In this document: piece by piece, positions 28,438 to 30,381 of the stretch
Layout of the letters: every line of letters begins with the position of its first letter
Position numbering within the stretch: the stretch's first letter is position 1
NCBI GenBank assembly: GCA_021372055.1
Contig: JAJFVB010000146.1
Span: 1 to 35,262 of the forward strand
Reading direction: 5' to 3'
Source of the DNA: Desulfobacteraceae bacterium
GTDB lineage: Bacteria > Desulfobacterota > Syntrophobacteria > Syntrophobacterales > Syntrophobacteraceae
Length of the DNA stretch: 35,262 nucleotides
Made by a program: the position numbers and the translations under genes
Notes under the pieces: model-generated
What the model saw: only the letters and a program-made list of their open reading frames with translations
The model's database searches: none
Told to the model about the DNA's origin: nothing

Positions 28438-28475
28438 TGTTCGCAAGGATTGTCGGGGGCATTGCCCCCGAACAT
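28438..28475 (-). repeat. nested palindromes between rhodanese and peptidase genes
   Basis: An 8-base-pair near-perfect palindrome (CGGGGGCA-T-TGCCCCCG, 28454-28470) lies inside an outer ATGTTCG/CGAACAT pair (28438-28444 with 28469-28475). A competing TGTCGG/CCGACA pair shares bases with it. The structure is 40 bases after the rhodanese stop and just before the peptidase ATG. It may end or attenuate transcription, or be one of the window's dispersed palindromes. Confidence 0.55.
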
Positions 28476-28518: not shown

Positions 28519-28929
28519 CTATTTTTTCTCCACGGGATATTTGCTGTCGGACCATTCGTGCCAGCCCCCCTTAAGCACGCGCACGCCGGTAAATCCCGAG
28601 GATGCGAGTATTTGCGCCACCCGGGCGCTCGTATGCTCGTTTTGTCAGGCGCAATAGAGCACGAGATTATCGCCGGGAGAGTACTGGTCCTTCCATTGGG
28701 AGACCTTCGTCGGGTCCCGCCACACCGCCCCCGCGATTTTCCACTGGGTGTTTTGCCACTCCCCCGGCAGGCGAACGTCAATGACGGTGGGTGCTCCCGG
28801 ACGTCCCATTTCGGCCTTCAATTCCTCCTTTGTCACCAGCGGGGAATCGTGCGCCCCGGAAACGGCGCCGCTAAGGATGACGAAGACAAAGACGGCTGCT
28901 GCCGCAACTCTTGCTGCAAGGGTATTCAT
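28519..28929 (-). CDS. secreted rhodanese-like selenoprotein (UGA-encoded selenocysteine)
   Basis: The reading frame from ATG 28929 is interrupted by TGA at 28647-28645 (codon 95) but continues for 41 codons with clear rhodanese homology to TAG at 28519-28521. A signal peptide (MNTLAARVAAAAVFVFVILSG) is followed by VIDVRLPGEW, then NLVLYCA-[UGA]-QNEHTSARVA and VRVLKGGWHEWSDSKYP. The UGA lies in the active-site loop where rhodaneses have the catalytic Cys (YCACPNE type), so selenocysteine replaces it. A SECIS-like hairpin follows the UGA. The 136-residue protein should act on sulfur or selenium in the periplasm. Standard annotation would stop at the UGA or call the opposite strand. Confidence 0.88.
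28605..28639 (-). promoter_or_regulatory. bacterial SECIS element of the rhodanese mRNA
   Basis: Eight bases after the UGA the mRNA folds as CGAG/CTCG, an internal loop, then GCGCC/GGCGC closed by the 5-base loop CGGGU with G at its second position. The loop is about 21 bases from the UGA, within the spacing known for SelB-binding hairpins. Confidence 0.75.
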
Positions 28930-29084
28930 AGCTGTTTCCTTTCGAAAATAGGATTTTGCGGCATGGCTGCCGCGCCCGCTTTCTCCAGTGTCGCTATGGG
29001 GTCGGCAGCATGCTACGCATCAAAAGATAGCCACCGCCCCGGGGAAGTCAAAATGATGCGAAAGCAGGTCCATTATTGCTTGCG

Positions 29085-29134
29085 GGACCACTTTCAATCC
29101 TCCGGATGATGTTTATTTCAATGAAAAGTGGTCC
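29085..29134 (+). terminator. terminator-like hairpin upstream of the RtcA-like/FAU-1 genes
   Basis: GGACCACTTTCA (29085-29096) pairs with TGAAAAGTGGTCC (29122-29134) with one bulged A, and TTCTTTTT follows on the plus strand. No plus-strand gene lies before it, so it could end an antisense or leader RNA. The surrounding gap 28930-29175 holds nothing else I can support. Confidence 0.45.
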
Positions 29135-29175: not shown

Positions 29176-29373
29176 GTGATTGAGATCGATGGAGCGGAGA
29201 AATCGGGGAGCGGCGCACCGGTGAGATGTGCCGTTGCGCGCCTGCGCGAATTCTGCGTCCGAACGGCCCGCATCGAGTCGAACCTGCGGCTTGCGCAAAA
29301 GATCCCCGGGGCCGGGGCGGAACTCGACGACAGGCTGATTTCCATTGACGGCATCGGATTTTTGGGAAAATAA
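29176..29373 (+). CDS. RtcA-like N-terminal fragment (RNA 3'-phosphate cyclase)
   Basis: This 65-residue product begins GTG (29176, with GGAAGG five bases ahead). It reads as the first strand-helix unit of RNA 3'-terminal phosphate cyclase: IEIDG at the start, a Gly-rich turn, R-x-AVARL and later a PG turn. The family's GGGQ turn is replaced by GSGA, and the other 270 residues of the enzyme are absent. It may be a decayed remnant or a short stand-alone domain. It lies 24 bases before the FAU-1/DUF402 gene, so the two share a transcript and an RNA theme. Confidence 0.5.
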   Translation: MIEIDGAEKSGSGAPVRCAVARLREFCVRTARIESNLRLAQKIPGAGAELDDRLISIDGIGFLGK

Positions 29374-29397: not shown

Positions 29398-30381
29398 ATG
29401 CGGCCCCGCATCAAGATCAGAGGCATCTACAGCACGGCTCTGACCCGATTCGCGCTGGATTCCGGGTTTGTCGTCGTCGCCCCGCTGCCCAGAGTTCAGG
29501 CGCGCTTTGCCGAAACGTTTCCCGAGGGGCCCTGGGATGTCGCCGTTCAGGATACCTGCGATTTCCAGGGCATCGAGCTTGCGGGGGACGCGGATAGTCT
29601 GTGCAATGTGCTCACGGCGATGCTGGAGAAACTGCAGGACCCCATCATTTCGGATTTCCTCCCCACCGAAGATGATGATCCCACCGCAAAAGCGACTCTC
29701 CAGCTGCCCGGAGCCGCCAAGGCGAAGCTTGACCTGCTGAGGGGCGCCGTGGTCCCGACGCTCCACAACCACCACAGGCTGAAGATCATAAACAGCGAAC
29801 TGCTGCGTGCCGCGGAATCGGAGCTTGTGAGGCATCCGGATGAGAAGCCCGAATTGGAAGCGATGCTTTTCAATGAGGCCATTCTCGGCCCCCTGAAGCG
29901 GGAAGGCGAGTTCCGGCTCGAACACGTGCGCGCCTCCGGCAAACCGATGCGCCCGCGCAAGGGGCGCATGCACAAATCATCGGAGGATCGGATCGTCTTC
30001 AAGCGCACCTTTGGCCAGGGGCGCTACGACGGCCTGAATCTGCCGATCCGAAGCGGAGATTACGGGTTGACCGAACTCAGGGAAGGCGACTGGTATGTGA
30101 GGCACAGTTACTTTTCTCGCGAGAGTCTGCTCATCGGGGACTACTTCAACATCAATACTCCGGTCGAGTTGTACCCGTACGGGGCCCGCTACGTCGACCT
30201 GGAGATCGACGTGGTGCGCCGATGCGGCGAGGAAGCCTTTTTAACGGACAGGGAAAAGCTGGAACTGCTGTGCCGGAAGGGCAGCATCAGCAAGGATCTG
30301 CATGCGAAGGCGCTGATCGTCGCCGAACAGATTCTTCGCAGTCTCAACCGCGAGAGAACGGACAAACCGGAGACAAGATGA
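29398..30381 (+). CDS. FAU-1-like RNase E/G-type protein with DUF402 domain
   Basis: This 327-residue protein fits the FAU-1 family: an N-terminal part related to RNase E/G (S1-like, residues about 1-110) and a C-terminal DUF402 domain (about 190-290; GDWYVRHSYFSRESLLIGDY, NTPVELYPYGARYVDLEIDV). Archaeal FAU-1 binds AU-rich RNA and cleaves ribosomal precursors; a related RNA-processing role is likely here. AAGGAGAA lies about 7 bases before the ATG. Its stop overlaps the next ATG (ATGA), so translation of the membrane protein is coupled. Confidence 0.75.
   Translation: MRPRIKIRGIYSTALTRFALDSGFVVVAPLPRVQARFAETFPEGPWDVAVQDTCDFQGIELAGDADSLCNVLTAMLEKLQDPIISDFLPTEDDDPTAKATLQLPGAAKAKLDLLRGAVVPTLHNHHRLKIINSELLRAAESELVRHPDEKPELEAMLFNEAILGPLKREGEFRLEHVRASGKPMRPRKGRMHKSSEDRIVFKRTFGQGRYDGLNLPIRSGDYGLTELREGDWYVRHSYFSRESLLIGDYFNINTPVELYPYGARYVDLEIDVVRRCGEEAFLTDREKLELLCRKGSISKDLHAKALIVAEQILRSLNRERTDKPETR

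Follow-up and report, generated by a model that had tools for sequence, protein, structure and literature searches.

The selenorhodanese gene and its product

A small rhodanese-like gene lies on the minus strand of the window (i.e., the whole stretch of 35,262 nucleotides analysed here); its frame opens with an ATG at 28929-28927, ends with a TAG at 28521-28519 and is broken by a TGA at codon 95, as had been reported in a preliminary description of this DNA (Table 1). The read-through translation, MNTLAARVAAAAVFVFVILSGAVSGAHDSPLVTKEEL...LVLYCAUQNEHTSARVAQILASSGFTGVRVLKGGWHEWSDSKYPVEKK, comprises 136 residues. Standard ORF calling cuts the product at residue 94 and also lists an open frame on the opposite strand that overlaps the gene, both ORFs being on the standard list, so that the warning that automatic callers would truncate the gene or prefer the antisense frame was well founded; it is here that the gene has its value for annotation. 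A strong GC-rich hairpin, CGGGGGCAAUGCCCCCG, devoid of a U run, is found in the interval between the selenorhodanese gene and the downstream M1-type peptidase gene.

Table 1. Coordinates of the selenorhodanese gene, of its features and of neighbouring elements in the window
Feature	Position	Strand	Remarks
Selenorhodanese coding sequence	28519..28929	-	136 aa, U predicted at 95, ATG to TAG
Signal-peptide-like N-terminus, residues 1-25	28855..28929	-	MNTLAARVAAAAVFVFVILSGAVSG; putative, from the sequence directly
Rhodanese domain, residues 33-128	28546..28833	-	PF00581, AlphaFold2 model, Foldseek
Cys93 codon	28651..28653	-	Canonical rhodanese YC position; Cys, or Sec in some relatives
In-frame TGA, codon 95 (predicted Sec95)	28645..28647	-	Sole in-frame TGA of the gene
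bSECIS core hairpin	28614..28628	-	28628-28624 pairs with 28618-28614; loop 28623-28619, CGGGU
ORF by standard rules	28645..28929	-	Product cut at residue 94
Antisense ORF	28558..29109	+	Overlaps the selenorhodanese gene
GC-rich hairpin	28454..28470	-	Interval before the M1-type peptidase gene
rtcA remnant	29176..29370	+	Middle deleted
DUF402 gene	29398..30381		Intact

The rhodanese identity initially proposed for the product is confirmed by PF00581 (52.7 bits vs a cut-off of 22.2, residues 33-128), by NF041203.1, rhodanese_LYCAU (135.3 bits vs a curated cut-off of 115, with positions 7-126 of the 126 of the profile covered), and by the AlphaFold2 model (57 input sequences, mean pLDDT 90.5), whose best matches in a Foldseek comparison with the PDB are rhodaneses with a probability of 1.00 (2kl3, 3ilm, 1gmx, 2jtq). 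Both profiles cover the two sides of the TGA, so that the homology does run on past the apparent stop. The signal-like segment noticed at the N-terminus is also present: it is hydrophobic, residues 2-19 are helical in the model, and the relatives retain a hydrophobic N-terminus that in some of them resembles that of lipoproteins, which suggests that the protein may be exported and be either secreted or periplasmic.

Relationship to known rhodaneses and selenoproteins

When rhodanese selenoprotein families were searched, as had been recommended, the protein was found to exceed the cut-off of NF041203. Since this family describes the LYCAU protein and since the table of a 2026 review (PMC13188914) contains it as “Rhodanese-like domain-containing protein form 3” (NF041203, CxU, one Sec), the window gene is an additional member of an already known selenoprotein family and not a new kind of gene. 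The same protein is entered as COG0607 form 2, CxU, in PMC9312934, and rhodanese-like selenoproteins have been reported from marine metagenomes (PMC1088965, PMC2398784). The window protein shares with the CxU form 3 the LYCAU motif, the domain, the position of Sec and a score above the cut-off, and no feature sets it apart from the family; some NF041203 relatives, on the other hand, have a second Sec (UxU), a form absent from the table of PMC13188914.

The resemblance to other groups is more limited. TsoB (NF045694), a rhodanese/DsbD fusion-like selenoprotein, likewise has a rhodanese domain with Sec but differs in having two Sec in a UxxxxU arrangement (PMC13188914) and a fused DsbD-like part, and the window protein is far under its cut-off (20 vs 805 bits). 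The chromate-resistance rhodanese ChrE (NF033833) is the best-scoring NCBIfam family of the Cys type (47 bits), but the score is again far under the cut-off (120) and ChrE is without the CxU pair. Finally, the classical single-domain rhodaneses GlpE, PspE and Alr3790 (2kl3, 3ilm, 1gmx, 2jtq) have the same fold, whereas their active-site loop is two residues shorter and contains a single catalytic Cys and no Sec.

Conservation of the UGA codon and selenocysteine machinery

In a first set of 60 genomes around that of the window, a TGA falls within the match in all close homologs except one, and on reading it proved to occupy the same codon. The family profile was independently run against 84,980 species genomes and retrieved relatives that a query with the single protein had not found on the species-genome contigs; the 80 loci that were read (L059-L138) comprise 76 with Cys-x-TGA (L084 reads YCAU), two with TGA-x-TGA (L123, L135) and two with Cys-x-Cys (L114, L121). 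Overall, the position of codon 95 is occupied by TGA in 94 of 98 distinct homologs, the remaining four having Cys there (the CxC forms L114, L121, L148 and L051), and the carriers belong to Thermodesulfobacteriota, Nitrospirota, Methylomirabilota and other phyla. The possibility, envisaged at the outset, that close relatives all end at this codon can be dismissed; indeed, the sequence past the UGA is conserved, its identity to the window protein being 57% (residues 96-136) vs 41% for the part that precedes it (residues 31-94).

A real stop, a sequencing error or decay, leaving a 94-residue product or a pseudogene, is what standard ORF calling, which ends at the TGA, would imply; this is very improbable in view of the recurrence of TGA at the same codon in several phyla with conservation beyond it, of the coverage of both its flanks by NF041203 and of the covariation of the SECIS described below.

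The genome to which the window belongs (4.66 Mb, 94% complete) possesses the full set of genes that the preliminary description had suggested looking for, and neither selB nor selC is missing: selA (632 bits), selB (363 bits), a tRNA-SeC gene with a TCA anticodon and two selD genes (L017 = G000:C261 and L018 = G000:C133), each with one in-frame TGA in the context G-U-A-A-K. Across the phylum, every genome with a match over the cut-off has selB; this co-occurrence is consistent with Sec insertion but is a weak test, selB being found in 131 of the 148 genomes overall. The insertion of an ordinary amino acid instead of Sec, by virtue of a reassigned code or of a suppressor, could also account for a frame that is open past the TGA, but is scarcely conceivable, as the Sec system of the genome is complete, the rare homologs without TGA have Cys at this codon, and TGA is an ordinary stop in the window, where it ends 11 of the 21 long non-overlapping ORFs.

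The bSECIS hairpin

The hairpin with a 5-base, G-containing loop, described earlier as resembling a bSECIS, does exist, and an evaluation by bSECIS criteria, as had been advised, places it within all the limits given in PMC13188914, namely a loop of 3-9 nt, a stem of 4-16 bp, a G as the first or second loop base, a distance of 16-37 nt between UGA and loop and an MFE of at most -7.5 kcal/mol. Its core consists of a 5-bp stem (GCGCC/GGCGC) and of the 5-nt loop CGGGU, located 21 nt past the UGA. The statement that the hairpin starts 8 bases after the UGA holds for an outer, less conserved fold and not for the conserved core, which starts 16 nt past the UGA.

The 53-nt stretch has a fold energy of -14.7 kcal/mol (z -0.74) and 43 of 200 shuffles fold equally well; by minimum free energy in the single window sequence the hairpin is therefore not significant, and it is the comparison among relatives, not the energy, that places it beyond chance. 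In fact, all five pairs form in each of 26 related sequences, four of the five with compensatory changes, and none of 500 shuffled controls reaches any of these measures. Among the 98 distinct homologs the hairpin is kept in all 94 U forms (five pairs of five in 87, four of five in 7), always with a G within loop positions 1-2, and is lost in three of the four Cys forms; the fourth, L114 (YCAC), retains an intact hairpin and apparently represents a recent Sec-to-Cys change. The most telling pair links two third codon positions, one in a Ser and the other in an Ala codon; changes at either are mostly synonymous, and the two covary almost perfectly (Ser-Ala: T-A 53, C-G 36, T-G 4, C-A 1). With such covariation at synonymous sites and with the decay in the Cys forms, the family offers an unusually clean SECIS. 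The Rfam model SECIS_1 (RF00031) gave no match in the genome, a silence that is uninformative because all 14 control genomes are silent too, and a cmscan of the region yielded chance matches only.

The family score, the Sec machinery, the TGA in 94 of 98 homologs, the covariation of the SECIS and the loss of the hairpin in Cys forms concur in making it highly probable that the UGA at codon 95 encodes selenocysteine, and equally probable that the gene is genuine and specifies a small, secreted protein of the rhodanese type with this residue. SelB and tRNA-Sec would decode the UGA under the direction of the downstream hairpin.

Position of Sec95 with respect to the catalytic cysteine

In the AlphaFold2 model Cys93 comes directly past the strand formed by residues 89-92, and the nucleophilic Cys of rhodaneses follows such a strand directly. 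No member that was read has a residue other than Cys or Sec at position 93. When the protein is compared by HH-suite with Cys rhodaneses of related genomes the catalytic Cys pairs with Cys93 in all six alignments, and MAFFT agrees, whereas in the ungapped alignment of the family profile with 6mxv it is the second position, that of Sec95, that pairs with the catalytic Cys; in six of the seven profile comparisons the canonical nucleophile thus corresponds to Cys93 and not to Sec95. Both registers are possible because the active-site loop, CAUQNEHTS, is two residues longer than usual. This loop has no Gly or Arg, and the six-residue CxxGxR/S loop starting with the nucleophilic Cys, by which classical thiosulfate sulfurtransferases are recognised, is absent.

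The original proposal that Sec lies exactly at the catalytic Cys consequently stands by the 6mxv alignment and falls by the six HH-suite alignments, in which Sec95 is two residues further on, and Sec does not clearly replace the catalytic Cys; what can safely be said, on the basis of the alignments, is that the predicted Sec95 takes the place of the second Cys in the CxC pair of the Cys forms of the family. The sulfurtransferase chemistry originally attributed to the protein would, likewise, be presumptive. A classical thiosulfate/polysulfide sulfurtransferase, with Sec95 acting as nucleophile from the canonical position and with a purely structural role for Cys93, would be in keeping with the rhodanese fold and with the 6mxv register, but is rather unlikely considering the other six alignments, the restriction of position 93 to Cys or Sec and the lack of the CxxGxR/S loop.

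UxU variants and cytochrome fusions

Ten distinct sequences (L037, L038, L123 (= L143), L135, L140, L141, L142, L144, L145 and L146) display a UxU motif (YUxU, TGA-NNN-TGA) and a single SECIS hairpin, whose loop lies 27 nt past the first of the two UGA codons. In a tree based on about 107 columns, in which many forks are unresolved, 8 changes are required to explain UxU, and well-supported branches force no fewer than 5 of them; the UxU form arose independently several times. The open-access literature searched contained nothing on UxU, or on double Sec over one SECIS, in this family. These members look like natural examples of a single bacterial SECIS that may act on two UGA codons at a distance of six bases, and make successive Sec insertion directly testable.

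In L033/L056, L053, L144 and L145 the selenorhodanese continues in frame into a multihaem c-type cytochrome (PF13447), with 8 CxxCH motifs in each of the two fusions that were read to their end; the copy in the window is without a cytochrome fusion.

Possible chemistry of the Cys-Sec pair

Folding would bring Cys93 and Sec95 together in the lengthened active-site loop, and one member of the pair, probably the more nucleophilic Sec95, might attack an extracytoplasmic sulfane-sulfur or disulfide substrate; the partner residue would then resolve the intermediate, and the selenenylsulfide so formed between Cys93 and Sec95 could be reduced by an electron donor of the periplasm. This mechanism, in which a Cys-Sec pair performs sulfane-sulfur/redox chemistry outside the cytoplasm, is the preferred one, and the case for it seems about evenly balanced; it is favoured because position 93 is always Cys or Sec, because CxU, UxU and CxC interconvert several times on the tree and because of the four copies with a multihaem cytochrome fusion, which point to extracytoplasmic redox chemistry. 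Taken as a whole, a secreted or periplasmic, single-domain NF041203 selenoprotein with Sec at position 95, which may act through a Cys-Sec pair, very probably represents the best explanation of the locus.

For the family at large it may be suggested, somewhat more tentatively than the mechanism itself, that its members are not ordinary sulfurtransferases but extracytoplasmic redox enzymes having a Cys-Sec or Sec-Sec pair within a rhodanese fold, sometimes wired to a cytochrome, with one SECIS directing two Sec in the UxU forms and with the window gene as a CxU member. The 93/95 pair thereby provides a concrete hypothesis for the role of a rhodanese fold with selenium.

Gene neighbourhood

Among the 80 loci L059-L138, 18 have an APC-type amino-acid permease gene upstream, on the same strand and mostly directly adjoining (e.g., L060:2628-3953 and L069:2712-3959), and clustering of the neighbours of these 80 loci disclosed no common pathway beyond this permease. 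The neighbourhood bears on the idea that the protein handles selenium itself, binding a perselenide in its rhodanese fold and serving either to reduce selenite or to deliver selenium. A rhodanese can form perselenide, according to work cited in PMC5877670, which describes a Geobacter rhodanese gene, extH, clustered with a porin gene that is required for the reduction of selenite/tellurite; ExtH (49 kDa), however, is a different and larger protein, and among the recurrent neighbours in the 80 loci, of which the permease is the commonest, none was recognised as a selenium-metabolism gene, so that this role appears improbable.

The window also contains a remnant of rtcA (RNA 3'-phosphate cyclase), of which the first ~25-38 and the last ~36 residues are left, the middle having been deleted. 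In relatives from the genus or family an intact rtcA occupies the corresponding divergent position and precedes a DUF402 gene, and the latter gene is intact in the window.
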